A stretch of DNA of 64,000 nt from Limonium bicolor (Eukaryota > Streptophyta > Magnoliopsida > Caryophyllales > Plumbaginaceae), in contig CM041780.1 of the NCBI GenBank assembly GCA_023374045.1, positions 168,450,085 to 168,514,084 on the forward strand. The letters are read 5' to 3'. Positions within the stretch are counted from its first letter, which is position 1, and the number at the start of each line of letters is the position of its first letter. Both the position numbers and the translations under genes were made by a program. This document shows, one piece after another, positions 2,838 through 52,097 of the stretch. The notes beneath the pieces were generated by a model. The model was not told where the DNA came from, did not search any database, and saw only the letters and a list, made by a program, of their open reading frames with translations.

Positions 2838-2948
2838 TATCTGCTGGGTATATTTAACAGCTCCCTTGCCCCAGAAACTGATTGGAATCATCTTTCTGTG
2901 TTCTCAGTTCAGATTATTGTGCTTATTTACCCAATTCTATTCAATCTC

Positions 2949-12605: not shown

Positions 12606-15526
12606 ATGAGTCAATCTCAGATTCCGATCATGAGTATGTTCCAGTTCAAGCCCGTAAGTATTTAGTTTATTGTCTTTGTAAATCATATTCGCACTAATAT
12701 TTCATATTTCAATATTCATCTAACATTCTCTCGACCCTTATTGCAGGAAAGTGACTCAACCACTGATTCAGATTGGGATGAATTTGATGAAGGCGTTCCA
12801 GATCATAATGCAGAGATGGATGACTACATGCAAGATGTATAATCGACCTCCGGTGGTGGACACAGGTTACTATTTCAAACAAACCAGGCCTTTAGGAGTA
12901 AAGAAGAAGCGAAAGCTTGGGTAGATAGTGTTAGCCATCCCAACCATATCTACACCATAATTCAAAGTTCTCGGTCGGGCCAAGATTTCCACATAACATG
13001 CGAGAGGTATTGGAAACCACGAAGGACATCACGACCTGGTGTCATCAACCGGCGCAGATCATCTGGTTCAAAGAAATGTGGTTGTCCTTTTCGAATTAAG
13101 GGGTATTACACAAGCTACGGGTGTTTCTTGCAAGTGGGTAACGGATGGCATAACCATGATCTCGCTGAGTGGGCAGAGGGTCATTTTGTGGGAAAATTCC
13201 TGACTGAGGCGGAGGAGATTATGATCGATCAGAGAAGCAAAGTCGGTGTGCCACCCTGTGCAATTTATTCAGAGCTCACAACAATTAACCCAGAAACGTC
13301 AGCAACAAGGAAAGACATATACAACCGGATACAAAAAACAAAACTAGTAAAGAGAGATGGTCGATCTATGGTGCAAACTCTGCTGAGTGAGCCAGACAAA
13401 AACAACTACTACTACTACGATTACACTACAGAACCAAGTAAGTCAACTCAGTATGTCTCAAATAACTCAATCATTTTGGTTTCATATTAATTTGATAGAT
13501 AACATGATTATATTTCACAATTTAGGGGATGAAACACGACTTGGGTCCATCTTCTTTGCACACCCTACCTCTAGATTACTGCTCCATGCTTTCCTGTATG
13601 TCATAGGCATTGATGCTACCTATAAAACAAACATAGCAAAAATGCCTTTGGTTCAGTTCATCGGGATGACGAGTATAGGCAAAAACTTCAGCATTGCCTT
13701 CGCCTTTCTTGTATCAGAATCAACAGACATGTATGTGTGGGCACTTCAACAATTAAGGGACCTCCTCGGGCGGACTACAACCTCTACATTTATCACCGAC
13801 AGATGTCTGGCCCTGATGAATGTCTTAGAAGAGGTATTTCCTGAATCTCATCATCTACTATGTCGGTGGCACATAAGTAGGAACGTTCAGGGGAAAGCAG
13901 AGACTTATATGGGTGATAGAGGAAGGGCGGCGGCTGCAGTCCGAATGTGGACTTCGGTTGTCTACTCGAGCACAGAGCAGGAGTACAACGAGAGGTATGA
14001 AAATTTCAAGAATACATACCGAAGCTACCCACGTTTCATTACGTATGTTGCATCAGTCTGGGAGAAATACAAGGAAAAATTTGTGGAGGCTTGGGTCAAG
14101 AATGTGTTGCACTTCGGCAACACAACGACAAATAGGTAAAATTGTTAATCTTGTAATGTTTAAGATAATACAATCATTGTTATAGATCTATAAAACTTAC
14201 TTAAACATTTGATAGGGTGGAGAGCGCACATTCTTCTCTAAAGGCGAGATTAAGGAGTGCTAGACACACTTTGGATGTAATCTTTCCAAAGATTAACGAT
14301 CATGTGAATACAAGCATCCGGGAGTTAAAAAAGGATTTTGAGGCAGCCAGGACAAAACACAGAAGAGAGCACATGAGGGTTCCAATTGCTGACCTGATTG
14401 GGAAGGTTAGTACCCTTTGCTTAGATGAACTAGTCAAGGAGCTTGGAAGGGCGAATTATGTGCAAATGGACAGCTCACTCTGTGGATGTGACAAGGTAAC
14501 CTCTCATGGATTACCTTGTGCTTGTAAATTAAACTACATGCTGGATAGTAGTATACTATGCTCGAAGAGGGATATACATCGTTTCTGGTATACCCTAAGC
14601 TAGGAGAAACATGAATCGACAATTGATATGGTATCCTACATGGAGGAAGAACAGAATAGATGGTGAGACATAGCTTCTGAGGTAGCACAGTTAGATGATC
14701 CTACTCTGATGGCGAAATGTTACAGTCAAATCCAAAACTTCCTTCACCCAGATATGGTGTGCCAATTAGAAGAGCCATTTGAACAGTTCTGGATTGGCAG
14801 ACCAAACCGACGGGAACCTTCGTCTTGGGAGCGTAACCGACCAAGGGCAGGCCAGTCAGAAGGAGCGCCATCAAATAGAAGATCACGTAATAGAGGATCA
14901 TCAAATCCAAGTCGATTCCTGCCCCTAGACAACTTCCCATACTACCAAAGTTTCAACCCCAACCTATATCAATATATGACTGGGTATATTGATGTTCGTG
15001 GAGATGGGAATTGTGGTTTCAGGGTCATTGCTGACTACCTATATTCAAACGAAGAGAGGTGGAAAGATGTCCGTAGAGCATTGTACAATCACATGAAGAA
15101 TCAAGCACCTGCGAATCAACTATACAAGGTCATTTTTAACGAAGGACCGTACAATGACATGTTAAGAGCGCTTCATTGGAATTTAGGAGGGCCAGCACCT
15201 CCAGAGAAATGGATGAACATGGAAATGGGGTTGGCGATCGCGACAAAGTACACTTCGATAGTAGTTTTCTACTCTACTGTCTTTGGGGGTATGGCAAGTG
15301 CCACATACCTTCCGCTCGATAATTATACCGATCGTGATAGCCCAAGAGGAGAGATCCACATAGGAATTTGCCCCCAGGGCATTTCGTAAGGTTCGGCATG
15401 GTTGATGACTCCCCACTCCCCCCTGTCTATCCGCAGTGGTTCTTTTATAGAGATCCAAACACTGTCGGACCTTGGATTCATCAAATACAATCTAGGTTAG
15501 ATAGTTGGATCAACGTTGTACCTTAG
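12606..15526 (+). pseudogene. MULE transposase fused to an OTU cysteine protease domain
   Basis: Exons: 12606-12653, 12747-13437, 13526-14135 and 14216-15526. In order: an acidic N-terminus; a WRKY-GCM1/FAR1-type zinc finger (TCERYW, KKCGCPF, WHNHDL); the MULE DDE-type core with GIDATYKTN, FITDRCLALMN and the LLCRWH motif; a SWIM finger (CGCDKV, HGLPCACK); a Ser/Arg-rich linker; then an OTU domain with DVRGDGNCGFRVIADYLY carrying the catalytic Asp and Cys. Breaks: in-frame stops TAA (12840), TAG (14601) and TGA (14664), plus a one-base frameshift near the C-run at 15371-15375. The expected His motif (HFV, codon His at 15380) is in the next frame, which runs on to TAG at 15524. The stops look like G-to-A or C-to-T changes. 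It would have cut and moved this element family. Confidence 0.85.
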
Positions 15527-24768: not shown

Positions 24769-25668
24769 CTGGCTGTAACACCCCATCTCCAAATAAAATG
24801 ATTGTCTCCCTAAGTCCATCTCATTTATTAACAACGCAGCGGAAAAGTTCTACTAAATTGGTGTTACCGCTGTTAGTCACCCACGTGACTAACTAGGCCT
24901 ATTCTCTTACAAGTCACGGTCTGACTAACCGGATAATTACCCGAGCATCTATACAATACAATCCATAAACCACAACTTATACCGAGTATCTCATATCCTA
25001 ATACATCATACTAACATCTCATCCGTTTACTAAACAAGTGTACATGCATAACTTGTGTAACAAATGTAAAAGCAACCCGAAGTACTCTACCCGTTCCTAC
25101 TCTCAGGATGGTCGTCTTCTGCTATTCACCTGCAAAATAAACAGTTGCCCCCGAGGGGGTCAGCACCTTTGCTGGTACGATTCTCTTATAGCCCCCAAGC
25201 TAACGGGGATACGACGACTAATTGTCGATAGCATGAAGTTGATTAGATACACAACATAAGTAAGAAGTGCAATAAACAACAAGCCACATATGAACAAACA
25301 TAGTTCACACACAATGAACGACTTAAAAGCGTTCCCTTAATAAGTGATTTACTCATTTAACTCCTTAAGATATGATTTCTCTTAATCTTAGTCCATTCTT
25401 ATCTTACCTCAATCTTAATCCTTATCTCAAATCTTATCTCAAATAAGACAACCGTTCTTTAATTAGAACTGATTGTACCATAGTTCGTTGTTTATTTTTG
25501 TCGGGTTGTTATTAACCCTAGCCAGTGAGTTATCAGCTCCACTAGTTTAAATAAACAATATTTCTTAAATTATGAGGGGTGTAGGCTTGACCCTCCTTCG
25601 CCAACTGAATTTGCCTCCCACCTCGAACTGTTCATCCATGGTGGTCGAGTCTATTTGTCGACTCTAGG

Positions 25669-27700
25669 TGTAACACCCCTATTTAACATATTTATAGCGG
25701 AAATAAAATACTAAAGGCGTACAGACCATCGGGTTCCAAACACCCGGTACCAAACCTCACTAAAATACAACTTAATGATTACAACTGTCACAGCCTGAAC
25801 CTCGAGAAAACTTAACAAAAGTAAAACAGTAATAAACCATATAAACTCTCAAAACCTAATCCCATCCCAATCACTCGTTCTCTTCGTGGCCACCTGTAAA
25901 ACAACTCGTACCTGCAAGATAAAACCAAGCAGCCCACCCCAAGAGGGGAGGTTCAGTTCCCTGGAATGGAACTGGTACGATCCTCCAAAAACAAACTTAT
26001 AATACAAATCTTAGATAATTAATAGCAGGAAAATAAACACTTAAACCACACAGAGGAACAAGGCATCTCACGAAATCACCAAATCAAGATGGCAAGATAA
26101 GAATAAAGGTTAATAACAGAAAAGAAAAGTTAGTGAAACAAAACCACGTCATGTGTTAGTGAACATCCATTGCTTTAGTTAAACCCAATACCCATCAGGA
26201 GTAGAAAGACTCAGATAATCACAAAGGACTAGGAATAATAAGATAGATCCAAGATTCAATAACTCAAGAGTGGAATAATTCAACTGGGAGAGATGGCCCC
26301 CACCGCCAAATATAAATGTCTGTATGGGCGAGGGATATACAGCCCCCTGCTGTCAGATTAAAAATGTTCTGGTGGACGAGGGATATACAGCCCCCTGCTG
26401 TCAAATATAAATGCCCCTATGGGCGAGGGATATACAGCCCCCTGCTGTTACCATTGAAGACGCGCGCACGTCGAAACCTCAAGAACCAGCTCATGGATGA
26501 AATGATATCCAGAGTCAAAAGAAGAATTTCCAAGACTGACCTTTTTCCAAATTCCCACTAGATCACTAACTACCCAGAGCAATACCAAAACACTTAGTCC
26601 TACAGAGTGCAGAAGCGTAAACCCTAAGCAGTCAATGTCTAACGGGGCACCAAATAGAAGAAACCAATACCCAAGTGAGTTTCACATTCAAGGCTTAGTT
26701 AGTCACACAAGCTGAGTTAGTTACACAACCATTTCCTTTTTAGAAATTCCTCTTAAAGTCAGTTACGTTTCCAAACACTCCACAAGTCAATCATCAAAAA
26801 TATTGGAGTACGAGAAATCATACCTGGTATGTGAAGAACAACAAATAACTCGAATAAGTGATTCCCCAATAGTAACCTATAATTAAGGTGTTCGAAGTGT
26901 CGATTAGTTAAGGGACTTATAAACTAAACAACCTTCTTTCCTTACTGACTAGTAGTTCCAAGTTTACCATTATTCTCAAAAAGATTTGGGCTTGACTTGT
27001 TAACTAAATCCTTTACTAGGCCCATTTCGTTTAGTTTAGAACGATTTAGAATTTATTCCTGAGAGTGGCCCAAACTCTCTTTGAATTGTTTAAGTGGGCT
27101 TTTGGAGTTCATAGACTTGGGCTTAGTAGGTTAGCCCAAGACCGTGTTACGATTATGTTATGTAATAAAACCCTTAAGTTAATAGTGACTATTAAATTAC
27201 ACACCGATTAGAATTTAAGGTTATCATATATATATATATATATATATATTCTACTAATTATAACTATCACAAGGAATACTATTTCCCTCATCTATTTTAA
27301 TATATTTATATGCATATATATTTATATATATCTATATGTATTAAGATTTACCCATAACATTTTTAGGAAATTTTATTGTATTTATTTATGTTTAATAACT
27401 TCTAGGCATAACTCAACCGACATATGGTTTAATAAATAAAATGTTTTCCTTTATTTATTTTATAAATATAAGTATACCTGTATTAGAATTTAACTAGGAC
27501 ATCCCTTATGTAACTTATCAAATTTAAACCATCTTATACTACAACTTTTAACTACATTCCATGTATGGTTCATTAAGTATTACTTTAACTATATCATAGG
27601 ATACTAGCTCCTATAATATTTAGTTATTATAAGTGTTAGTTTATTAGCTTCCTGTTTTACCCTAAGTTACTACTTACTCCCTTTTATATATATGTATATA

Positions 27701-27761
<61 letters not shown>

Positions 27762-29952
27762 TATTTTCCTTAGTTTTAATTAAAAATATTAACTCCATAT
27801 AATATAATAAATTAAATGTAAAATAATTAAATTCCCTGATTTACATAAGTTTCTACTTAAATAAGTATATATACATATATGTAAATAATTTCACGTCTCT
27901 TAAAAACCAATACCAAAACATTTATAAACTTACTGTTATAAGATGTTAATTTAGTTTCCCATACTTTCCCCAGCTTAAGAAGTTCATTACCAAACCATAC
28001 TTTAATTTTTGGTTACATTTAAAAACTATATATTATAAGTTATTCTTATGAAAAACTCATAAACACAATTTTTAAAACCTTTTACCATTGCCCAAAAATC
28101 CCCAAATTTAATATACAGTAACTATAACATTTTAGACATATATAAAAAATTTTATTTCGTAAAAATATCTTTTCAATTTAGCCAAATAATTCCAGAAAAC
28201 CCGTAACTTGCAAAAATCATAACTTACGTTTAAAACTCCAAAACCATATTAATTTACATCAAAATAAACTAGATTAAATAAGGAATCTATGGTTAAAATT
28301 TCAAGTCAAAACAAATCCAGGAAGGTATTTAAATTAACTCAACAAGTTAGGACTATTTACTGAAATTTATAGAAACTTTTATAAACTTATTCTGAGACGT
28401 TTTAATCTCGGCCGTCCAATCTTTTAAAACGAGATCGGACGGCCCCTGAACGCTGAGTTCATCAGCGAAAACAGAACCTAACCCGAGTACTAAATCACGT
28501 TTTTCTCACAATCTACAGAACGAAATCGAGTGATTCTTGTTCCTATGGTTTCGAAATCGAATTCCGGTTCTAATGACACCGATTTCCCCAATTATAATGC
28601 AGTATTCCGAAAGATAGGTTCTGGGTTCCATTCGACTAGGGTTCTAAGTTATTCGAATTCAATCTTGCAAAATTCTACACATACAGAGCATAATAAACTT
28701 AATTGGTGGTTGGGTTAGGTCGGAAACATGACTACGAACAGCAATATCGGAGCAATTTGATCGGAAACTCACCGGAGTTGCAAAAACGGGGAATTCGAAT
28801 CTGAAGTTCTGGAAAAATTTGAGTTTTCGAGCAGTTCACCAAGCCAACTTTGAGGATCTATAACTTGCAGTACAGATCGAGTTAGGCTATGAATAAGGGC
28901 TTAATCGAAAGAGAAAACTTACCTCTACATATTGATAACAAGAACTAATCCTAACTCGCAACACACAGAAAGAAATTAAGGTCGAAAGTCACGAGTTTAT
29001 ACCTTACAGTTTCGGTATGATTTTATGTGCTGGCGAAACCGAAACTTTAGACACCTTGTTCTTCCAAACGGTTGGGAATTGGCTTAGGTCATCAACATGA
29101 AAGTTTTAGAGGAATTAGAGCTCTTCAAAACGAGCTAAAGAACGTGAAATTTGGATGAGAAACGAAGAAGTTATGGCTAGAGGAAGTTACCTGATTCGAA
29201 GGGAGAAACTGAAACTGCAGTTACGGTTTTTGCAGGGTGGCTACTTTGGCTCAGATTTCCGGTTGATTTAGAACGAGTTAGGGTTTGTGTGAGTTATGGT
29301 TGTTTAGAGGGAATGTAGGAGAAGGCAACAACGAAGACGGCACTCAAAAATTCCTTAAGATGAGAAAGTTATGAAGGTCACAAGATAGGGCAAAACCTGA
29401 TTTCTGTTACCCGAAATTATAGGAGATAAACGACTAAGTATGTCGGGGCGCGATTCCCGAGACGCGCGCTGACTCAGATGGCCATGCCACGTCAGCCCTT
29501 TATCAAAATTTTGGCTCTAAACTTCATTTGATCATAACTTTGGCTAGGATGATCCGTTTTTGACGTTCTTTTTATTGATCTTCATGGTTTTCCATAACCT
29601 ATTTATGGTATAGGTTTCATGGCCTGGTTTGACCATTCTCAAAAAGTCAACCCTAGCAAGGCTTAATAAGCTTTAAGGTTTCTAGGATTTTATGTTGACT
29701 TTTAAGTTTCAAAACAATATTCCAACACTTCCTAAAATCTTTATAATATAGCTGGAGTGTTTAGAAATTTTCCCAAGATTTATTGACTTATAAATCTTAT
29801 TATTAAATTCATAATACTATATAATAATATATAATAATTAGGGTAAATAGGAGAAAACCCCTAAATAAATTTCACAATTCCATATAATAATTTAATATTG
29901 ATAATAATAATTTAATTAAAGAAATCCCCTAAATTAATTTAGGGGTATTTCA
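25669..29952 (-). repeat. 3' LTR of the 15-kb gypsy element
   Basis: Begins TGTAACACCCCTATT and ends GGGGTATTTCA on the + strand. It holds a three-copy 47-48-bp tandem repeat (about 26325-26455, 'gggcgagggatatacagccc') and AT microsatellites at 27226-27250 and 27690-27760. The 62-codon ORF at 28530 is duplicated in the other LTR and has no recognisable family. Confidence 0.93.
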
Positions 29953-29970
29953 GTATACCCCCTTAAAAGA
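29953..29970 (-). other. Polypurine tract of the 15-kb gypsy element
   Basis: On the minus strand the sequence before the 3' LTR reads TTTTAAGGGGGTATAC. This is the usual site of plus-strand priming. The outer element has the like sequence TTTTAAGGGGGTAGAT at 45037-45053. Confidence 0.7.
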
Positions 29971-30530
29971 AACTTCGCCTCGAAGTTTAAAATCAACTAT
30001 AGGCACTCACACCGCTTCGGGTGTTCTGAGACAATAATAATTCCAATGAAATTCCATACCGATCCAATCCTTATTTCCATTTCAACATTCCACTCGAGAG
30101 TACCGAAATCAATCAAATCAAGAATAACTGAAACAACCAATGATATAGAACATGAAACAAAACAAAAACACAATCCTCTTCCGTACTAACGACGTAAAAA
30201 CATACACCTCTCACTCTACTAATACCGTTCTCCCTCTACTAACAATACAACAAGGCATAATCCGGATGAGATAACGAAGGAGGAGTATGCCCAGTATATC
30301 CCCCTTAAAAGAGCTAAGTTACGCCCTCGTACCGCCACTAACGTGAATCACATCAGGATAGCAGAATCATATAAACAGATGTGGGTACTTTACTCTCATG
30401 GAGTCCTCAGTCTCCCAAGTAGCTTCCCTCAACTCCATGATGTTCCCAAAGAACCTTCACTAGTTTAACTGATCTGCCTCTCGTTTCTCGGACTTCGTGT
30501 CCAAGATCTGAATAGGAGTCTCCTCATACC
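29971..30530 (-). pseudogene. Spacer and eroded chromodomain-like tail of integrase
   Basis: Positions 30370-30530 on the minus strand give pieces reading VKLVKVLWEHHGVE and TWETEDSMRVKYPHLF in shifted frames, like the C-terminal chromodomain end of Tekay-type integrases. Positions 29971-30370 are non-coding leader to the polypurine tract. Confidence 0.55.
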
Positions 30531-31839
30531 TCAGTGTAGGCTCAATCTCCAACCTCTTTGGTTGCAGTACGTAGAAGGGTCAGACATATACTTCTTCAGC
30601 TGAGACACATGAAACACGTCGTGTACCTTCCCCAACTCCGCTGGTAGCTCGAGTCTATAAGCAACTGGGCCCACTCGCTCCGTAATCCTGTACGGGCCGA
30701 CATACTTAGGGATTAGCTTCCCCTCATCCCAAATCTGAAGATGCCCCTCATCGGAGACACTCGTAAGAAGACCATGTCTCCCAACTGAACTCGAGCTCTC
30801 TGGTACGCTGATCCCCGTAAAGATTTCTGTCTGGACTGCGCTGCCCCGCATGTGCTGCTGAATAACCCTGACGTCATCCTGCAGTGTCTGAATATACTCG
30901 GGCCCAATCAAGACTGCCTTAGCAGGTGTCACTCCATGATAAGGAGTCCGGCACGGCCTGCCATATAGAGCCTGGAATGGTGCCATGCCGATAGACGCTT
31001 GGTAAGAGTTATTGTAGGAGAACTCTACCAGGTGTAGACGCTCTACCCAACTCCCTGATAGTCTAGAGCGACTGCTCGCAACATATCCTCCAATGTCTGA
31101 ATAGTCCTCTCAGTCTGCCCATCAGTCTGCGGGTGAAAAGCTGTGCTAAGTCGTAGCTGAGTCCCAAATGCCTCCCTGCACCTGACGCCAAAATCTACTG
31201 AGGAAACGAGTGTCACGATCGAGACGATCGTCTTCGGTACCCCATGGTACCGGATATGCTCCGTGGTGGTGAACACCTCAGCTAGTTTGGGCACCTTCCA
31301 TGTGTCCTTGATAGGTATGAACCTAGCTGTCTTGGTCAACCTATCGACTATAACCCATATGGCGTTCAGTCCACCTCTAGCTGGAGGGAGACCGACCACA
31401 AATCCATGCTGATGTCGTCAAACTTCCAGCACGGTACTGGTAGTGGCTGAATCTGGCCTCCTGGTCGACGATGCTCAAACTTCACCTTCTGACAAGTGAG
31501 GCACCGAGAGACGAAATCAGCTACATCCCTCTTCATCCCGCTCCACCAGAATAATTGCTTCAAGTCCTTGTACATCTTGGTGGCTCCAGGGTGTACTGAT
31601 AATGTCGAGGAATGAGCCTCTGAAAGAATCCTGGTCTGAAGTTTCGTCGCATCCTGAGGAACGCAGAGTCTGCCTCTGACTCGAAGGTGTCCCTCGCTGT
31701 CCAGCTCGTAGTCATACTTCAAACCGTCAGTCAACCCGTCTGCTAACTTTTGTCTGATGCCCTGTAGATAAACGTCACTGTCCTGGGCTGCATACACTTC
31801 CTCAGCTATCGTGGTCGTCTCTATCAAGGCAAGAAGTGA
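30531..31839 (-). pseudogene. Ty3/gypsy integrase, frameshifted
   Basis: Reading right to left: an HHCC zinc-binding block ([20 protein letters not shown], then CLTCQKVK) in the upstream open stretch; the catalytic core with NAIWVIVDRLTKTARF, YHGVPKTIVS and FHPQTDGQTERTIQ; and a C-terminal region with ALYGRPCRTP, KYVGPYRITERVGPVAYRL and VHDVFHVSQLKKY. Frames change near 31399, 31215, 31185 and 31050. Two nearby indels (about 31230 and 31190) cancel out but destroy the second catalytic Asp context. It inserts retrotransposon cDNA into the genome; this copy would be inactive as read. Confidence 0.88.
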
Positions 31840-32375
31840 ATAAGCTCTTCTGCTCAGAGCATCTGCCACAACATTTCCTTTCCCTTCTGTGTACTGGAGG
31901 TTGAGGTCATAATCGGCCAGTAGCTCGACCCATCTTCGCTGTCTCAAATTCAACTCCTTCTGGGTCCAGATGTACTTCAGACTCTTATGGTCTGTCATAA
32001 TTTGGACCGTGGCTCCATACAAGTAATGTCGCCAGATCTTCAAGGCGAAGACTATGGCGAGGAGCTCAAGGTCGTGGGTGGGGTATTTTCCTCGTGCTTC
32101 TTCAGCTGTCTAGAAGCATACGCTACTACTCGACCATGCTGCATCAGTACTCCACCAATTCCTCTGCCTGAAGCATCGCAATACACCTCGTACCCCTCAT
32201 TCCCCTCTGGGATAATCAATACTGGAGCTGAGGTCAAGGCGTCCTTCAGCGCCTGAAAGGAGACCTCACAAGCCTCTGTCCATACAAATGGGCTATCCTT
32301 CTTCATCAGGGAGGTCAAGGGCTTGGCTAGCCTGGAGAAGTCCTTCAAAGCGTCTATAGTAGCCAGCCAACCCAA
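31840..32375 (-). pseudogene. Ty3/gypsy RNase H, frameshifted
   Basis: The first part covers 32375-32052 ([54 protein letters not shown]). After a one-base loss near 32080 the frame continues at 32043 with [31 protein letters not shown] and [13 protein letters not shown]. It degrades the RNA of the RNA/DNA hybrid. A YCDAS-type catalytic Asp and the DHKSL motif are visible. Confidence 0.88.
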
Positions 32376-32390
32376 GGAAACTCCTAACCT

Positions 32391-33051
32391 CTGTCACGTG
32401 TGAGGTCTATGCCAGCTCTTCACTGCCTCAATCTTAGCTGAGTCTACTGAAACTCCCTCAGCTGAGATCACGTGTCCAAGAATGACACCTTGTCCAGCCA
32501 GAATTCACACTTGCTGAATTTGGCATACAATTGTTTCTCCCTCAGTGTCTCCAAGACTGTCCTCAAATGCTGCTCATGTTCCTCTTTGCTCTTGGAGAAG
32601 ACTAGAATGTCGTCTATGAATACGACTACCGATTTACCTAGCTGAGCTTGGAAGACTCTCTCATCAAATCCTAAATCTCGCCGGTGCATTGGTCAGTCCA
32701 AACGACATCACTGTGAACTCGTAGTGGCCGTATCTGGTCCGGAAGGCTGTCTTCTCTATGTCTGGCTCAGCTACAGCTATCTGGTGATATCCGGAACGCA
32801 GATCAATCTTAGAGAACACCTTTGCTCCCCTCAGCTGGTCGAACAAGTCATCGATCCTGGGCAGTGGGTACTTTGTTTTTGATCGTGACATTGTTCAGCT
32901 CTCTGTAGTCTATACACAGTCTCACGCTTCCGTCCTTCTTCTTGACGAACAACACAGGAGCGCCCCAAGGTGAGACGCTGGGTCTGATGAAGCCCTTATC
33001 CAGTAGCTCCTGCAACTGCTTCTTCAACTCGGCCATCTCTGCAGGGCCCAT
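32391..33051 (-). pseudogene. Ty3/gypsy reverse transcriptase, frameshifted
   Basis: Three open pieces join in order. 33051-32848 has [20 protein letters not shown] and [14 protein letters not shown]; 32891-32664 has [17 protein letters not shown] and [13 protein letters not shown]; 32689-32468 has the catalytic FIDDILVFS box. Frame changes are an extra A in an A-run near 32870, a change near 32670, and a lost base near 32475. It copies the element's RNA into cDNA. Confidence 0.9.
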
Positions 33052-33334
33052 CCGGTAGGGAGCCTTAGCAATCGGTCACGTGCCAGATACGAGGCCGATG
33101 TTGAATTCAACCTCTCTCAGCGGGTGTCCAGGTAGCTCCCTCTGGAAAAACATTGGGGTACTCCGACACAATGGGAACGTCGCTCCTGAACTTCGGATCC
33201 GTCCTCAGATCCTGGGCATAACAGTAGTAGGCAGTCGCGCCCTTGGACACTTCCTTCATTAGGGATAATGCCGATACAACCCTTCACAGTCGGCTGTTTG
33301 GGTTGCATTCGGTATGACACGGTGATCCCTGTGG

Positions 33335-33905
33335 CTACTTCAGGAGGAGACGATGCTCTACACAGTGTAGTCTGCCTCGGTACCGTTGTAGCGTGTCCAT
33401 GCCCACAATTATGTCGAACCCCATGCCAGGAAAGACTATGGCATCAAGCAGGAAGTCTGCTCCCTTGATGTGTATGCTCAAATTCTTGCACTGCTTACTG
33501 CACTTGATCCGCTCTCTGGAAGGCCAGCAAGACTGAGCAGTCGTGGATATCCTCTGTGGAAGCATTGATCTTAGCATGGAACGCTTGTGATATAAACGAG
33601 TGGGAGGCACCAGAATCAAACAGGACTGTGGCCTACACTCCATTAACTAGGAACGTGCCTGAAATTATAGGATAGATTTTTTTTTAAGATTCTGGGTAAA
33701 CGTTCCAAGGCAATTACTCAGGGTTTATGTTTATACCTGTGATGACCATTCCATTGCTCTTTGCTTGAGCCTGGTCCAACACATTCAGCCTGACCTCTAC
33801 ATTTCCAGCTCCTACATGAAGAAGTAAGTTCTTAGAATTTCCATTCTTATTGAAAGCTTCATGAGCAGTTTAATGATTACAAAGCTGAAATTGTAAAGTA
33901 CATGG
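33335..33905 (-). pseudogene. Retropepsin-type protease region, with intron-like insert
   Basis: On the minus strand a pre-protease stretch (VRLNVLDQAQAKSNGMVITG, about 33815-33737) is followed by a GT...AG intron-like segment (about 33736-33665). Then comes TFLVNG, a TAG stop, ATVLFDSGASHSFISQAF with the active-site DSGA at 33607-33618, and after a frame change GFDIIVGMDTLQRY. It processes the polyprotein. The region between the AlkB stop (33906) and about 33815 ends in an acceptor-like TTCATGTAG. Confidence 0.75.
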
Positions 33906-34655
33906 CTAGATCTGTCTAAAGGTCAGGTTTAATCGGCCAGGTTTCAGGTGAGTCTGGTTAATAATGGGTGTGGGGGCTGTGTTGGGCTTGATTCTCTTCA
34001 CCCCATGGTAGATGAGTCTAGCTGCCCCACCAAAGATCAGTACATCACCTGACTTCAGGGGGATCCTGGTGGCAAGGTCCATCCTCTTCTGGTCACCGAA
34101 TAGGAACTTCGCGTCGTCTCCAAGTGATATGGAAACCACTGGAACTCCTTTGGTGATGGATTCTAGGGATTCATTCTTATCTTGATGCAACCCTAGCTTA
34201 CCTTCTTTCCCATAAAAATTGATGATGCAGACGTCTGAGGTTAGGTCTAGGACGGGCTCATCCTCCAATTCTTGTGCTGCCTTAACTGTAGCTCTAATGA
34301 TGGTCCGCAGTTCCTCCGGATTAGTGGGCACCTCCACCTCTTCATAGCTCTTGGTGGTGTGGTTCCACTTCTTACCTAGGCACATGATCTTCACCTTCAT
34401 GGTTGAACCATTCTTGAAGGTAGGGGTGTAAAAATTTCCTTCCTTCACACCTAACTCCCTGATCTTGAGGATCAATGCATACTGGACTGTCGGGGTCAGG
34501 TACTCTCGTAGTAAGATCATCCCGGGTCTCAAGACCTCACACTTCTCTGGTGGGTGTGGTTTGGCTTCAAAAGGGATGTTGGGTGTGGTACAGGGCAAAA
34601 TAGGAAAGCAAATATTGAAAGCTGAAGAACAATTGCCATTAAATAAATAAGTCAA
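33906..34655 (-). CDS. ALKBH1-like 2-oxoglutarate/Fe(II) dioxygenase inside a gypsy element
   Basis: The open stretch has 249 codons and no break. ALKBH1-type blocks appear in order: a conserved start FNICFP (residues 13-18), LRPGMILLREYL (42-53), VKIMCLGKKWN (88-98), DVCIINFYGKEGKLGLHQDK (141-160) with the iron ligands His157 and Asp159, VVSISLGDDAKFLFG (173-187), SGDVLIFGG (202-210), the distal iron ligand His217 in YHGVKRIKPNTAP, and RLNLTFRQ (241-248) with Arg241 and Arg247, the 2-oxoglutarate-binding pair. AlkB homologues oxidatively remove methyl groups from nucleic acids. It lies in the gag-pol direction between the gag zinc knuckles and the protease. The first codon of the open stretch is TTG; an acceptor-like TTCTTCAG at about 34622-34629 suggests a spliced exon, 34621-33906. 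Substrate is unknown. Confidence 0.92.
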   Translation of the reverse strand: MTYLFNGNCSSAFNICFPILPCTTPNIPFEAKPHPPEKCEVLRPGMILLREYLTPTVQYALILKIRELGVKEGNFYTPTFKNGSTMKVKIMCLGKKWNHTTKSYEEVEVPTNPEELRTIIRATVKAAQELEDEPVLDLTSDVCIINFYGKEGKLGLHQDKNESLESITKGVPVVSISLGDDAKFLFGDQKRMDLATRIPLKSGDVLIFGGAARLIYHGVKRIKPNTAPTPIINQTHLKPGRLNLTFRQI

Positions 34656-34768
34656 GGTTCACAACTGGACATGAAAGTTTCAAAACGAAACAAAATGAAG
34701 GGTTTATAGTTCATCCCTTTTACATTGACAACGAAAAACTAGACAACTGAATGTAAAGAAATAAGGGT
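34656..34768 (-). other. Intron-like gap between gag and the AlkB exon
   Basis: Stops in the sense frames, AT-rich text and an acceptor-like site at its downstream side (about 34622-34629) suggest an intron retained from the captured host gene. No clear donor could be fixed; the gag stop is at 34769. Confidence 0.45.
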
Positions 34769-35495
34769 CTAGGCCTCTTCATGAGGAAAATAGTCCTCAC
34801 CAGGTGAACTCGGGTCATCTTGCTGCCTCGACGCGGTCCACCATGTTAAGGACCGGTGCCTTGCCCGGCCTCTGGGGTAGTTCTGTCCCGGCCTCTGTGG
34901 ATGGCTCTGGGCAGGGCGGCTGGTAGATGGTCCACCCTCTTGTGCCACCTCGACCTCCTCCAGTAGTAGTAGCAGCTGGGGCTCTAGCAATGGTCCCGGT
35001 GGCGGGCTTGTAGTTCCAAGATTCGGGTTCTTATTGTGGCATTCGAATCTCCCTATGCCCTTTCTTAACCACAGTAGTTGCATTCCACCAGATTTCCTTT
35101 ACAATCCTGCCCGAGTGGTCCTTCTTGCACCACTTGCAGAAGTACCTTCTTACCGTCCGTTTCCTGTTTCTGCAAGGTTAGTGACGTGATAGCATAAATG
35201 TAACCATATTATAGATTCTAACTTTTCTCACCCCTGGGTGATTTATAGCGGAGAGGCTTAACATTAGCTTAGAAGGGACGATGGCCTTCTCGTTCCCTCC
35301 CTTGAAAAATTTTCCCCTCCTTTCCTGAGTCTGAGGGGGTCCTCTTCTATTTCCTATCCTCCTCCATTGTCATTCCTCCTCTTGCCTAGCACAGAGTCCT
35401 GATAGGCAATGGTGGTCTCGCAATCGTTCGCATCCTCAGCTAGTTCCTATCGTTACAAGATGTGTTAGTGGGGAAATCTTTGCGCACCAGAAATT
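34769..35495 (-). pseudogene. gag C-terminal part with two zinc knuckles, frameshifted
   Basis: Minus-strand pieces include YFCKWCKKDHSG (about 35153-35118), DCKGNLVECNYCG (about 35107-35069), KKGHRE and FECHNKNPNLGTT in changing frames. This is the double CCHC-type arrangement of Tekay gag. A Pro/Arg-rich tail runs to TAG at 34769. Upstream, ANDCETTIAYQDSVLGKRR (about 35430-35370) and an RG-rich stretch connect back to the gag core. Confidence 0.7.
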
Positions 35496-36152
35496 CTAAC
35501 TCATATTCCATACCTGTAGGGTCATCCCTCTGGTGGAACCGATCATAGTCATGATCTTGAAGTTCAAGCCGGTATGGAATTTGTCCACCAGATATCTTGG
35601 AGCGTAAGCTCCCTCTCCAATGACAGCAAGTAACTCCATAAATTTATTGTAGTACTCAGCAACAGAGGAATTCCCTTGCTTCAGCTGCTCGAACTTACTC
35701 CTCATCCTCTTCTGTAGATAGGATGGATAAAATTTAGCTCTCAGGGCCACTAGAAATGCCTGGAAGTCAAAGTTTGCCTGGGCCGTCAGCTCGGCTCTAG
35801 TAGTCTGCCACCATCGATGCGCGGGTCCCTGAAGAAAGTAGGCCGCTATGTCCACCTGGCGATTCACTGGAACATGCAGAGAGGTGAAGGCCTTCTGCAT
35901 CTCGTCTATGTATTTCTCTAAAGTCTTCGGTTCTGGTTGGCCTTCATAGATGGGAGGATGAAGGTTGTTAACCGCCTTCAGCCAGTTGAACTCCCGGGGA
36001 CCATTCGGTGGTGGCGGTGGTGGCTGTGGGATCTGAGCCTGCTGCTGGGCCAATGCAGCTGTCACAATCTGCGCCATGACCTCCGGGGTGACAACGTCGG
36101 GTCCATAGCCTCCTGAGGGACCAGCTCCTCCTCTTCCTCTTCTTCGAGACAT
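35496..36152 (-). CDS. Ty3/gypsy gag (capsid) core
   Basis: An open frame of 218 residues starts MSRRRGRGGAGPSGG with an Arg/Gly-rich then Pro-rich leader, followed by a retrotransposon gag domain: NLHPPIYEGQPEPKTLEKYI, YFLQGPAHRWWQT, FLVALRAKFYPSYLQKRMRS and EYYNKFMELL. Gag forms the virus-like particle that packages element RNA. The start lies about 245 bases after the primer-binding site. The frame is lost after 35496, where the normal core continues toward the zinc knuckles. Confidence 0.9.
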   Translation of the reverse strand: MSRRRGRGGAGPSGGYGPDVVTPEVMAQIVTAALAQQQAQIPQPPPPPPNGPREFNWLKAVNNLHPPIYEGQPEPKTLEKYIDEMQKAFTSLHVPVNRQVDIAAYFLQGPAHRWWQTTRAELTAQANFDFQAFLVALRAKFYPSYLQKRMRSKFEQLKQGNSSVAEYYNKFMELLAVIGEGAYAPRYLVDKFHTGLNFKIMTMIGSTRGMTLQVWNMS

Positions 36153-36399
36153 CTAGCTGGTATGACGGTTTTGTTACTCAGAAGGCGTATTGTAAAGTCT
36201 AACTATCTATGTAGTCATATATGAAATATTTATAACGTCCTAAGGACGGTTCGTATGTACATGAAGTAAATATGGGGTAAGGTCACGCGCCTTTCTGGAA
36301 TTCTCACTTCCCAATTCTACCCCAGTTCCCCAGTTTTAAGTGCACCTATAATCTAAGTATTTCACTCGGCTTGTTTTCTCGGGTTCAGAGCGTAACTAC

Positions 36400-36411
36400 G
36401 CTCTGATACCA
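36400..36411 (-). other. Primer-binding site (tRNA-iMet), 15-kb gypsy element
   Basis: The minus strand reads TGGTATCAGAGC, complementary to the 3' end of plant initiator tRNA-Met, five bases inside the 5' LTR. The site overlaps a short inverted repeat, GAGCGTAGTTACGCTC on the minus strand (36387-36402). Confidence 0.92.
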
Positions 36412-36416
36412 ATTTC

Positions 36417-38469
36417 TTTAACCCGCCATATTTAACATATTTATAGCGGAAATAAAATACTAAAGGCGTACAGACCATCGGGTTCCAAACACCCGGTACC
36501 AAACCTCACCAAAAATACAACTTAATGATTACAACTGTCACGGCCTGAACCTCGAGAAAACTTAACAAAAGTAAAACAGTAATAAACCATATAAACTCTC
36601 AAAACCTAATCCCATCCCAATCACTCGTTCTCTTTCGTGGCCACCTGTAAAACAACTCGTACCTGCAAGATAAAACCAAGCAGCCCACCCCAAGAGGGGT
36701 GGGTCGGTTCCCTGGAATGGAACTGGTACGATCCTCCAAAAACAAACTTATAATACAAATCTTAGATAATTGATAGCAGGAAAATAAACACTTAAACCAC
36801 ACAGAGGAACAAGGCATCTCACGAAATCACCAAATCAAGATGGCAAGATAAGAATAAAGGTTAATAACAGAAAAGAAAAGTTAGTGAAACAAAACCACGT
36901 CATGTGTTAGTGAACATCCATTGCTTTAGTTAAACCCAATACCCGTCAGGAGTAGAAAGACTCAGATAGTCACAAAGGACTAGGAATAATAAGATAGATC
37001 CAAGATTCAATAACTCAAGAGTGGAATAATTCAACTGGGAGAGATGGCCCCCACCGCTAAATATAAATGTCCGTATGGACGAGGGATATACAGCCCTCTG
37101 CTGTCAGATTAAAAATGTCCTGGTGGACGAGGGATATACAGCCCCCTGCTGTCAAATATAAATGCCCCTATGGGCGAGGGATATACAGCCCCCTGCTGTT
37201 ACCATTGAAGACGCGCGCACGTCGAAACCTCAAGAACCAGCTCATGGATGAAACGATATCCAGAGTCAAAAGAAGAATTTCCAAGACTGACCTTTTTCCA
37301 AATTCCCATTAGATCACTAACTACCCAGAGCAATACCAAAACACTCAGTCCTACAGAGTGCAGAAGCGTAAACCCTAAGCAGTCAATGTCTAACGGGGCA
37401 CCAAATAGAAGGAACCAATACCCAAGTGAGTTTCACATTCAAGGCTTAGTTAGTCACACAAGCTGAGTTAGTCACACAACCATTTCCTTTTTAGAAATTC
37501 CTCTTAAAGTCAGTTAGTGTTTTCCAAACAACTCCACAAGTCAATCATCAAAAATATCGGAGTACGAGAAATCGTACCTGGTATGTGAAGAACAACAAAT
37601 AACTCGAATAAGTGATTCCCCAATAGTAACCTATAATTAAGGTGTTTGAAGTGTCGATTAGTTAAGGGACTTATAAACTAACAACCTTCTTTCCTTACTG
37701 ACTAGTAGTTCCAGGTTTACCATTATTCTCTCACAAAGATTTGGGCTTGACTTGTTAACTAAATCCTTTACTAGGCCCATTTCGTTTAGTTTAGAACGAT
37801 TTAGAATTTATTCCTGAGAGTGGCCCAAACTCTCTTTGAATTGTTTAAGTGGGCTTTTGGAGTTCATAGACTTGGGCTTAGTAGGTTAGCCCAAGACTGT
37901 GTTACGATTATGTTGTGTAATAAAACCCTTAAGTTAATAGTGACTATTAAATTACACACCGATTAGAACTAAGGTTTATCATATATATATATATATATCT
38001 ATATATATATATCTATATATATATACTACTAATTATAACTATCACAAGGAATACTATTTCCCTCATCTATTTTAATATATTTATATGCATATATATTTAT
38101 ATATATATCTATATGTATTAAGATTTACCCATAACATTTTTAGGAAATTTTATTGTATTTATTTTGTTTAATAACTTCTAGGCATAACTCAACCGACATA
38201 TGGTTTAATAAATAAAATGTTTTCCTTTATTTATTTTATAAATATAAGTATACCTGTATTAGAATTTAACTAGGACATCCCTTATGTAACTTATCGAATT
38301 TAAACCATCTTATACTACAACTTTTAACTACATTCCATGTATGGTTCATTAAGTATTACTTTAACTATATCATAGGATACTAGCTCCTAAAATATTTAGT
38401 TATTATAAGTGTTAGTTTATTTGCTTCCTGTTTTACCCTAAGTTACTACTTACTCCCTTTATATATATG

Positions 38470-38500
<31 letters not shown>

Positions 38501-40700
38501 TTCATATTTCCCTTAGTTTTAATTAAAAATATTAACTCCTCCCATATAATATAATAAATTAAATGTAAAATAATTAAATTCCCTGATTTACATAAGTTTC
38601 TACTTAAATAAGTATATATACATATATGTAAATAATTTCACGTCTCTTAAAAACCAATACCAAAACATTTATAAACTTACTGTTATAAGATGTTAATTTG
38701 GTTTCCCATACTTTCCCCAGCTTAAAAAGTTCATTACCAAACCATACTTTAATTTTTGGTTACATTAAAACTAATATTATAAGTTATTCTTATGAAAAAC
38801 TCATAAACACAATTTTTAAAACCTTTTACCATTGCCCAAAAATCCCCAAATTTAATATACAGTAACTATAACATTTTAGACATATTATTAAAATTTTATT
38901 TCGTAAAATATCTTTTTAATTTAGCCAAATAATTCCAGAAAACCCGTAACTTGCAAAAATCATAACTTACGTTTAAAAACTCCAAAACCATATTAATTTA
39001 CATCAAAATAAACTAGATTAAATAAGGAATCTATGGTTAAAATTTCAAGTCAAAACACATCCGGGAAGGTATTTAAATTAACTCAACAAGTTAGGACTAT
39101 TTACTGAAATTTATAGAAACTTTTATAAACTTATTGAGACGTTTTAATCTCGGCCGTCCAATCTTTTAAAACGAGATCGGACGGCCCCTGAACGCTGAGT
39201 TCATCAGCGAAAACAGAACCTAACCCGAGTACTAAATCACGTTTTTCTCACAATCTACAGAACGAAATCGAGTGATTCTTGTTCCTATGGTTTCGAAATC
39301 GAATTCCGGTTCTAATGACACCGATTTCCCCAATTATAATGCAGTATTCCGAAAGATAGGTTCTGGGTTCCATTCGACTAGGGTTCTAAGTTATTCGAAT
39401 TCAATCTTGCAAAATTCTACACATATAGAGCATAATAAACTTAATTGGTGGTTGGGTTAGGTCGGAAACATGACTACGAACAGCAATATCGGAGCAATTT
39501 GATCGGAAACTCACCGGAGTTGCAAAAACGAGGGAATTCGAATCTGAAGTTCTAGAAAATTCGAGTTTTCGAGCAGTTCACCAGGCCGACTTTGAGGATC
39601 TATAACTTGCAGTACAGATCGAGTTAGGCTATGAATAAGGGCTTAATCGAAAGTGCAAACTTACCTCTACATATTGATAACAAGAAATAATCCTAACTCG
39701 CAACACACAAAAGAAATTAAGGTCGAAAGTCACGAGTTTATACCTTACAGTTTCGGTATGATTTTATGTGCTGGCGAAACCGAAACTTTAGACACCTTGT
39801 TCTTCCAAACGGTTGGGAATTGGCTTAGGTCATCAACATGAAAGTTTTATAGAAATTAGAGCTCTTCAAAACGAGCTAAAGAACGTGAAATTTGGATGAG
39901 AAACGAAGAAGTTATGGCTAGAGGAAGTTACCTGATTCGAAGGGAGAAACTGAAACTGCAGTTACGGTTTTTGCAGGGTGGCTACTTTGGCTCAGATTTC
40001 CGGTTGATTTAGAACGAGTTAGGGTTTGTGTGAGTTATGGTTGTTTAGAGGGAATGTAGGAGAAGGCAACAACGAAGACGGCACTCAAAAATTCCTTAAG
40101 ATGAGAAAGTTATGAAGGTCACAAGATAGGGCAAAACCTGATTTCTGTTACCCGAAATTATAGGAGATAAACGACTAAGTATGCCGGGGCGCGATTCCCG
40201 AGACGCGCGCTGACTCAGCTGGCCATGCTACGTCAGCCCTTTATCAAAATTTTGGCTCTAAACTTCATTTGATCATAACTTTGGCTAGGATGATCCGTTT
40301 TGACGTTCTTTTTATTGATCTTCATGGTTTTCCATAACCTATTTATTGGTATAGGTTTCATGGCCTGGTTTGACCATTCTCAAAAAGTCAACCCTAGCAA
40401 GGCTTAATAAGCTTTAAGGTTTCTAGGATTTTATGTTGACTTTTAAGTTTCAAAACAATATTCCAACACTTCCTAAAATCTTTATAATATAGCTGGAGTG
40501 TTTAGAAATTTTCCCAAGATTTATTGACTTATAAATCTTATTATTAAATTCATAATACTATATAATAATTAGGGTAAATAGGAGAAAACCCCTAAATAAA
40601 TTTCACAATTCCATATAATAATTTAATATTCATAATAATAATTTAATATTTAATTAAAGAAATCCCCTAAATTAATTTAAATTAATTTAGGGGTATTTCA
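36417..40700 (-). repeat. 5' LTR of the 15-kb gypsy element
   Basis: Same length as the partner (4284 bp) and nearly the same sequence. The edge next to the primer-binding site reads TTTAACCCGCCATATT where the partner has TGTAACACCCCTATT, so the terminal CA of the sense strand has mutated. The tandem 47-bp repeat (about 37065-37200) and AT microsatellites are conserved. Confidence 0.93.
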
Positions 40701-41372
40701 CTAGGCGACGAGTCCGAAGACAAGTCATATTTGGAAGTCAGGATCTGATAAGGATACCGACCTCCCTTAATACACATGTGCCGGTACCATTCCGGATTCC
40801 TCACTCCCCCATGTTCCAGTTAGTGGAAGTCCCAAAGTCAATGTTGTTAGTTAACCACTTTCGGTTACCAACAAAACAATATTTGGGAGTGTTCCTTATT
40901 CTCACACAATTCTTTACTAAATATTGTTAGTAAGTTCTCAAGGTAAGTTGTGTTAGTGCATCATAATCACACAATATAATATTCCGGTTGCATGCTTTAT
41001 CTTGTTTAGTCGAACATATAAACAATTAGCACACAAACCGAGGGACACCTCGTTAGCAAGCAGGCTATAAGAAAACCATACCACACCGGAGATTGGCTAG
41101 CTCTTAATACCACGTTCGCCTAGTCCGTCGAACGCCTCCGACTATCTAGATCTGTAACCAGAACTAGTATTAGTATCTTGTGTCTTAGAACTAGTTTGGT
41201 TCTCTTTTCAACTTAAACCTCTTTCTAGGTTACCCGGGTATAATAGTATACCGTTAAACGGGTTCGTTCATTTAAGAGCGTTTTCAAGCTCAATTCTAAT
41301 TCATTAACATACTAACGTCGTTAGCAGTTACTTAGTTGCACAATTAGCAACTTTAGACTTATTCGGACCTTA

Positions 41373-50175: not shown

Positions 50176-52097
50176 TGTAACACCCCATCTCCAAATACAA
50201 TGATTGTCACCCTAAGTCCATCTTGTTTATTAACAACGCAGCGGAAAAGTTCTACTAAATTGGTGTTACCACCGTTAGTCACCCACGTGACTAACTAGGC
50301 CTATTCTCTTACAAGTCACGGTCTGACTAACCGGATAATTACCCGAGCATCTATACAATACAATCCATAAACCATAACTTATACCGAGTATCTCATATCC
50401 TAATACATCATACTAACATCTCATTCGATTACTAAACGAGTGTACAAGTATAACTTGTGTAACAAATGTAAAAGCAACCCGAAGTACTCTACCCGTTCCT
50501 ACTCTCAGGACGGTCGTCTTCTGCTATTCACCTGCAAAATAAACAGTTGCCCCCGAGGGGTCAGCACCTTTGCTGGTACGATTCTCTTATAGCCCCCAGC
50601 TAACGGGGTTGCGACGACTAATTGTCGATAGCATGAAGTTGATTAGATACACAACATAAGTAAGAAGTGCAATAAACAACAAGCCACATATGAACAAACA
50701 TAGTTCACACACAATGAACGACTTAAAAGCGTTCCCTTAATAAGTGAGTTAATCATTTAACTCCTTAAGATATGATTTCTCTTAATCGTAGTCCATTCTT
50801 ATCTTACCTCAATCTTAATCCTTATCTCAAATATTATCGCAAATAAGACACCGTTCTTTAATTAGAACTGATTGTACCTTAGTTCGTTGTTTATTTTGTC
50901 GGGTTGTTATTAACCCTAGCCAGTGAGTTATCAACTCCACTAGTTTAAATAAACAATATTTCTTAAATTGAGGGGTGTAGGCTTGACCCTCCTGCGCCAA
51001 CTGAATTTGCCTACCACCTCGAACTGTTCATCCATGGTGGTCGAGTCTATTTGTCGACTCTAGGCGACGAGTCCAAAGACAAGTCATATTTGGAAGTCGG
51101 GATCTGATAAGGATACCGACCTCCCCCAATACACATGTGCCGGTACCATTCCGGATTCCTCACTCCCCCAAGTTCCAGTTAGTGGAAGTCCCAAAGTCAA
51201 TGTTGTTAGTTAACCACTTTCGGTTACCAACAAAACATATTTGGGAGTGTTCCTTATTCTCACACAATTATTTACTAAATATTGTTAATAAGTTCTCAAG
51301 GTAAGTTGTGTTAGTGCATCATAATCACACAACATAATATTCCGGTTGCATGCTTTATCTTGTTTAGTCGGACCATATAAACAATTAGCACACAAACCGA
51401 GGGACACCTCTTAGCAAGCAGGCTACAAGAAAACCATACCATACACCGGAGATTGGCTAGCTCTTAATACTACGTTCGCCTAGTCCGTCGAACGCCTCTA
51501 ACTATCTAGATCTGTAACCAGAACTAGTATTAGTATCTTGTGTCTTAGAACTAGTTTGGTTCTCTTTTCAACTTAAACCTCTTTCTAGGTTAACCCGGGT
51601 ATAATAGTTTACCGTTAAACGGGTTCATTCATTTAAGAGCGTTTTCAAGCTCAATTCTAATTCATTAACATACTAACGTCGTCAGCAGTTACTTAGTTAC
51701 ACAGTTAGCAACATTAGACTTATTCGGACCTTGTATTAGGTTTTCGTAGTTTTCACTATTCATCTGTATCTCACTATTCATTTATACGGTCTCGTATTCT
51801 ACTATTCATTTATACGGCCTCGTATTTTACTATTCACCGTATTTCACTATTCACGTATACGTCTCGTATTTTACTGTTCATGTATACGTACTTCCTATTC
51901 ATGTATACGGATACTATTCACGTATATGAGTACTATTCATGTATACCAAAATTTCTCGTATACGTCCGTATGATACTCCGTATCAGACGTATTTATTTCT
52001 TTTTCCAATATAACTTGTATTTTCACTAAAAATCCTTTAATATTGATTTCTTCTATTTTCTTAAATTACGGGTATACCTCTCGTATACCCCAAGTTA

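Follow-up and report, generated by a model that had tools for sequence, protein, structure and literature searches.

A Ty3/gypsy retrotransposon of Limonium bicolor contains, between gag and protease, an unbroken frame for an AlkB dioxygenase of ALKBH1 type, and we consider it probable that this lineage took up an ALKBH1-type gene long ago and has retained it at this site as an alternative exon, which would provide a demethylation activity borne by Gag. The enzyme family, the active-site residues, the predicted fold, the site within the element, the large number of copies, purifying selection in the past and the clade of its own in which the protein falls are directly supported by the analysis of the window, the whole 64,000-nt stretch of DNA under study, and of the host genome (2.92 Gb, eight large sequences), which was searched for the AlkB protein.

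The whole element spans 15,032 bp on the minus strand (25669..40700), as delimited by its LTR pair and by a 5-bp target duplication, CTAGG, at both outer LTR ends (25664-25668 and 40701-40705). The 5′ LTR (36417..40700, minus strand, inner end approximate) and the 3′ LTR (25669..29952, minus strand) are ~4.28 kb each; aligned over 4308 columns, they show 63 mismatches, 24 gap openings and 96.3% identity. Plant substitution rates lie between 0.7 and 1.3e-8 per site per year, and the LTR substitution of ~1.5% (63 mismatches/4308 columns) would place the insertion roughly ~0.6 to 1.1 million years ago, which is to be read as a rough date only. The primer binding site TGGTATCAGAGC (36400..36411, minus strand), read from the sequence, is presumably of the initiator-Met tRNA type. 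The capsid part of gag (35496..36152, matching PF03732 and PF19259) lies upstream of the AlkB frame, and downstream follow the protease (33335..33658, with PF08284 on 33335-33643), which is broken in the window copy, and the RT, RNase H, integrase and C-terminal tail (30370..33116, assigned by Pfam and frames) with many frame breaks, all on the minus strand. The LTRs, the target duplication and the gag-PR-RT-RH-INT order identify a Ty3/gypsy element, and the placement of the AlkB frame inside it between gag and protease, proposed in an earlier sequence-only reading, held in the window and in other copies. In the window copy, gag up to the donor (34801) and the pol pieces have suffered many frame changes; the AlkB frame has remained open. 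As to a chromovirus (Tekay/Del) subgroup, Pfam Chromo had no match in the 697-aa open frame of copy L014 or in three short window pieces.

Each LTR also contains a 47-48-bp unit in triplicate (26307-26448 and 37059-37199), and the element is inserted in a repeat, its left flank (25001-25668) recurring 25 kb off at 50403-51064 with 96.6% identity. Elsewhere, the window contains a plant mobile domain (PF10536) at 8463-9143 with a frame similar by eye at 55457-56143, frames at 2866-5595 that by eye only resemble a LIM-domain (DA1-like) host gene, and frames at 13387-15389 that, again by eye only, resemble a MULE transposase with an OTU-type motif.

The AlkB frame (34655-33906, minus strand) runs without interruption through 249 codons from a first codon TTG to a terminal TAG, on the gag-pol strand as first described, and its product matched Pfam PF13532 (2OG-FeII_Oxy_2) at residues 45-247 with the whole profile covered (E 1.1e-43, 150 bits). 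This E-value and the at least 150 encoding places in the genome show that the frame did not arise by chance. Its first 11 residues are probably intron, and the likely exon comprises 34621-33906 on the minus strand, ending in its own stop TAG. The iron triad (His157, Asp159 and His217) and the pair Arg241 and Arg247 were found at the positions that the sequence-only reading had given them, together with Asn146 and Tyr148, and all seven active-site residues were identical in 51/51 sequences, comprising the window and 50 copies ranked by their AlkB protein. With HxD...H and RxxxxxR present, the iron and 2OG residues of the window protein are complete. Among solved relatives compared by sequence, rice ALKBH1 came first (E 7e-61), E. 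coli AlkB next and human ALKBH1 third. The predicted model (mean pLDDT 89.3, pTM 0.88) had its nearest fold in rice OsALKBH1 (PDB 5xoi/5xeg; TM 0.81 by query length, 45% identity) and was also close to DNA-bound bacterial AlkB, the first ALKBH5 chain appearing at rank 47 among the 50 folds listed and the 50 best viral folds listed being only 13-22% identical to the window protein. The protein is a 2OG-Fe(II) oxygenase of the AlkB/ALKBH1 type, much nearer to ALKBH1 than to ALKBH5, its nearest solved structure being an ALKBH1, so that the ALKBH1-like identity proposed at the outset is confirmed. Known members of the ALKBH1 family remove methyl groups from nucleic acids.

The host genome carries this protein in many copies: of 50,173 loose candidates, 150 were scored, and every one of these matched with 89-100% identity, with places on all eight large sequences, giving a copy number of at least 150 where a single copy would have spoken against a role in the element. 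By eye, 129/150 of these places lacked an internal stop, and the frame was intact in 37/38 copies, both counts coming from AlkB-ranked samples, which are biased to intact frames. In 20 AlkB-ranked copies read over 9.7 kb, gag lay upstream of AlkB in 18/20, and downstream of it lay the protease in 20/20, RT in 19/20 and integrase in 18/20. A second search of the host genome with an integrase piece scored 150 of 80,002 candidate places, 20 of which, besides the window, sit by eye 2.4-2.7 kb downstream of a listed AlkB place. From this search we chose four copies for their long open integrase frame and their absence from the AlkB list, a choice that favours broken or absent AlkB, and an intact AlkB frame was found in 0/4: L061 has one frame break and L063 one or more, L062 retains only the last 50 AlkB residues after an internal deletion and joins them directly to gag, and L064 has unrelated sequence at the AlkB site, though the integrase downstream of it is closely related (97%). 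Because the two samples err in opposite directions, the true share of intact AlkB frames lies between their values. Lesions in gag were seen in 33/38 copies, in part perhaps through misalignment, as the 3′ part of gag is 14-20% diverged. Many integrase places scored identically (509.8 bits) and some have open frames of >1000 residues, which points to a recent burst.

Around the AlkB exon, the GC content of the minus strand falls to 30-40% and the sequence becomes T-rich. A putative intron B (34622..34800, minus strand, GTGAGG...CTTCAG, T-rich, 32-40% GC) precedes the exon, and an AT-rich stretch (33812..33905, minus strand) follows it and ends in a second acceptor (ATGTAG), behind which lie a small exon ahead of the protease (33737..33811, minus strand, GAGNVEVRLNVLDQAQAKSNGMVITG) and a putative 78-bp intron C (33659..33736, minus strand, GTATAA...TTTCAG), whose excision would keep the protease start in frame. 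Across the window and 20 copies, the donor CTG|GTGAGG at 34800 has its GT in 19/21, the other two being without gag, the acceptor CAG before 34621 is present in 21/21, the second acceptor TAG before 33811 in 20/21, the intron C donor GT at 33736 in 20/21 and its acceptor CAG before 33658 in 21/21. A third candidate intron (35231-35170) was rejected, since other copies had no acceptor there. In copy L012, a single 415-codon frame extends from gag across a region weakly matching a zinc knuckle and closes shortly after the donor, which falls in phase 1 as both acceptors require; an alternative donor phase is open for >100 codons in 9/19 copies, and for this reason L012 carries most weight for the phase. 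If not spliced, the phase-1 frame ends ten codons past the donor in 16/19 copies.

The element falls into two subfamilies ~19% apart in DNA, with the same arrangement around AlkB in both, and base divergence between them is ~30% in the introns and 15% in the AlkB exon. The window kept 29/30 junction bases relative to L061 compared with 112/161 intron bases (p 6e-4), and over the five junctions 25-29/30 intron-side bases were kept compared with 63-70% in intron interiors, with p from 0.0006 to 0.032 in six junction comparisons that are not independent and of which two are weak (0.011 and 0.032). These conserved junctions support the predicted splicing around the AlkB exon. Downstream of the AlkB stop and ahead of the following exon, the stretch 33830-33905 is 17-18% diverged between subfamilies compared with ~30% in introns, and may hold a 3′-end or splicing signal.

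The phases of the predicted introns would allow Gag, Gag-AlkB and Gag-Pol to be made from one RNA. Judging from the phases and conserved splice signals, unspliced RNA would encode Gag, stopping about ten codons past the donor, splicing to the first acceptor would produce Gag-AlkB, and splicing to the second acceptor with excision of intron C would produce Gag-Pol. We infer that Gag would then bring the dioxygenase to the element RNA and into particles, that the enzyme would strip adenine methyl groups from RNA or single-stranded cDNA ahead of reverse transcription or in its course, and that this demethylation would relieve repression by the host or an obstacle to reverse transcription. Our first choice of substrate would be adenine methylation on element RNA in Gag assemblies, with single-stranded cDNA close behind. 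A wider reading, which we put forward tentatively, is that an old retrotransposon family present in several plants makes a Gag-ALKBH1 fusion by way of an alternative exon and packs the demethylase into its particles. Animal ALKBH1 removes m1A58 from initiator-Met tRNA and the primer site of the element looks to be of the initiator-Met type, so that in a bold version of the wider reading the tRNA primer of the element may be a substrate of the enzyme in addition to the genomic RNA.

The enzyme might instead work on the DNA side, repairing or demethylating single-stranded cDNA, or 6mA on integrated copies, rather than RNA. Rice ALKBH1 is the closest characterised relative, PMC10469495 describes 6mA as an ALKBH1 substrate, with a preference for unpaired or single-stranded DNA, and the predicted fold is close to that of DNA-bound bacterial AlkB, all of which would suit this alternative; a Gag fusion, on the other hand, would place the enzyme on RNA first, and we regard a purely DNA-side role as rather unlikely, if a real contender.

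Somewhat less probable still is that the same selected enzyme is made as a protein of its own from an in-frame start, at 34655 or Met46, with no spliced Gag fusion. An ATG replaces the TTG of the window in 7/21 sequences (16/51 in the larger set), two relatives from the same clade are predicted to start at a Met matching Met46, and the AlkB of an orchid element is a separate ORF (PMC9289625). Against such a start, the donor and acceptor phases suit a fusion and the junctions are conserved, the 11 residues ahead of the acceptor resemble T-rich intron, and a frame placed after gag would require re-initiation, so that Gag-AlkB made by splicing remains the reading that we prefer.

Whichever way it is made, the AlkB protein was under purifying selection in the past. 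L061 and L063, located via integrase and not via AlkB, were compared with the window, L012 and L018 of the other subfamily, giving dN/dS of 0.073-0.159 over the frame (dS 0.54-0.67, dN 0.047-0.086) and 0.063-0.149 over the exon only (dS up to 0.71). A dN/dS of 0.06-0.16 between subfamilies at dS 0.54-0.71 therefore indicates purifying selection on the protein. Among 51 AlkB-ranked sequences, mean dN/dS was 0.166 (inner branches 0.12, end branches 0.27), and a value near 1 across copies, which the sequence-only reading had named as unfavourable, was not found. Because ranking by protein similarity lowers dN/dS, we bounded the effect of picking the best copies by taking every 15 kb of the genome as a copy (194,710) and picking the best one; under this bound, 15/50 pairs of the window with a copy were non-neutral, and 11/50 with a lower bound on synonymous changes. 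On the branch of the window protein, 5/51 host-invariant columns changed compared with 36/98 variable ones (p 2.7e-4), with invariance set by 130 host proteins after exclusion of eleven distant rows from the host set, and the same test reached significance for the outside relatives P0002, P0003 and P0004, though P0007 fell short of it (p 0.067). A comparison of synonymous divergence in gag and AlkB (dS 0.278 vs 0.072 in the same 39 sequences) was dropped as evidence, as the gag alignment is seemingly misaligned in stretches; the gag part of the copy comparison excluded L016 and L022.

These results bear on whether AlkB is a passenger, a host gene copied and amplified without use whose open frames mark young copies only. 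The four integrase-found copies with broken or missing AlkB and yet long open integrase frames are what a passenger would give, as are the dN/dS values of the window relative to its near copies, 0.78 for L012 and 0.39 for L018, although these fit neutral decay after insertion, as expected. The low dN/dS between subfamilies at high dS, the preserved host-invariant columns and the shared surroundings of AlkB in both subfamilies oppose it, and we consider a passenger very improbable.

In a 146-row tree, made from 250 sequences above a length cut minus near-duplicates and short rows, the window protein grouped with P0002, P0003, P0004 and P0007 (SH-aLRT 100), and the same five-member grouping received 100/100 support in a 52-row tree of hand-picked rows, both trees containing ALKBH1-like rows only, without the host plant's own ALKBH1 genes and with P0122 and P0005 left out. 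The four relatives, ranks 1-3 and 6 among the best matches, come from unannotated sources (ena, lgn) and are known as sequences alone. A stem of 0.5-0.7 changes per site separates the clade from the host genes sampled among monocots and eudicots, and ten residues are specific to it, KRM at 190-192 among them; fast evolution could also drive the clade towards the base of the tree. Because the protein groups with four outside sequences and apart from the sampled host genes, the capture looks old, at least from the sequences compared. The sequence-only reading was right to speak of a capture. A protein from Artemisia, P0122, was rejected as a member of the clade, with two AlkB copies and none of the KRM residues by eye. 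IMG/VR scans with P0001, A2, P0003 and the integrase piece returned 0 relatives, as did a GTDB scan, and among the 59 matches of a padded search for long proteins none was listed with AlkB fused to gag or pol domains. Misassembly, or a host ALKBH1 pseudogene landed in one element, is refuted by the 150 or more places found over eight large sequences, the protease downstream in 20/20 copies and the separation of AlkB from host genes in the tree.

The closest known system is that of Alvarado-Marchena et al. 2022 (PMC9289625), who describe Phalaenopsis Ogre/Tat elements with a paALKBH5-like ORF2 (Gypsy_Pa_2799), whose enzyme was active on m6A RNA in vitro, and whose screen of 121 angiosperm genomes is given there as detecting the AlkB domain only in the two Phalaenopsis; a 2025 review (PMC12786077) gives this element as an example. 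Both are plant Ty3/gypsy elements with large LTRs, many copies and an AlkB dioxygenase with its cofactor residues. The orchid element, as described, belongs to the Tat lineage, has a tRNA-Arg PBS, measures 25.5 kb and encodes an ALKBH5/9B-type enzyme, active in vitro, in a 565-aa ORF2 apart from a single gag-pol ORF (PMC9289625), whereas the window element measures 15.0 kb and has a predicted enzyme of ALKBH1 type at a gag-to-protease site in a putative alternative exon. Among the open-licence PMC papers searched, PMC9289625 was the only report found of an AlkB gene in a retrotransposon, and no report was found of an ALKBH1-type gene in one. The window element is apparently a capture separate from the orchid one, differing in enzyme class and position, and its origin is probably distinct. 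In kind the finding has a precedent, a plant Ty3/gypsy element with a demethylase of the AlkB family having been published in 2022 for Phalaenopsis (PMC9289625).

Plant ALKBH1 genes, represented by rice ALKBH1, share with the window protein the predicted fold (TM 0.81, 45% identity) and the cofactor residues; the window protein differs in its own long-stem clade, its ten clade-specific residues and its location inside a retrotransposon. AlkB domains also occur in plant RNA viruses of the Alpha- and Betaflexiviridae and Closteroviridae (PMC9289625), likewise as mobile or viral dioxygenases, but in RNA viruses, and with 13-22% identity for the 50 best viral folds listed. According to PMC12786077, introns are generally absent from plant LTR elements, with exceptions such as Ogre and EVADE; splicing is described as setting the protein made from one RNA through the Ogre intron before RT and the short gag of EVADE and BARE (PMC12786077, PMC6317226), whereas the intron of the window element, whose splicing is predicted only, lies between gag and protease and contains an enzyme exon. 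An enzyme exon at this site would, if true, be a new way to deliver an accessory enzyme with Gag. The element would likewise be the second AlkB-type capture by a plant retrotransposon, of another enzyme class, at another site and long kept. If plant elements captured such enzymes twice independently, this would speak for methylation of RNA or DNA as a genuine defence against transposons in plants, an idea that a high-copy family makes testable.
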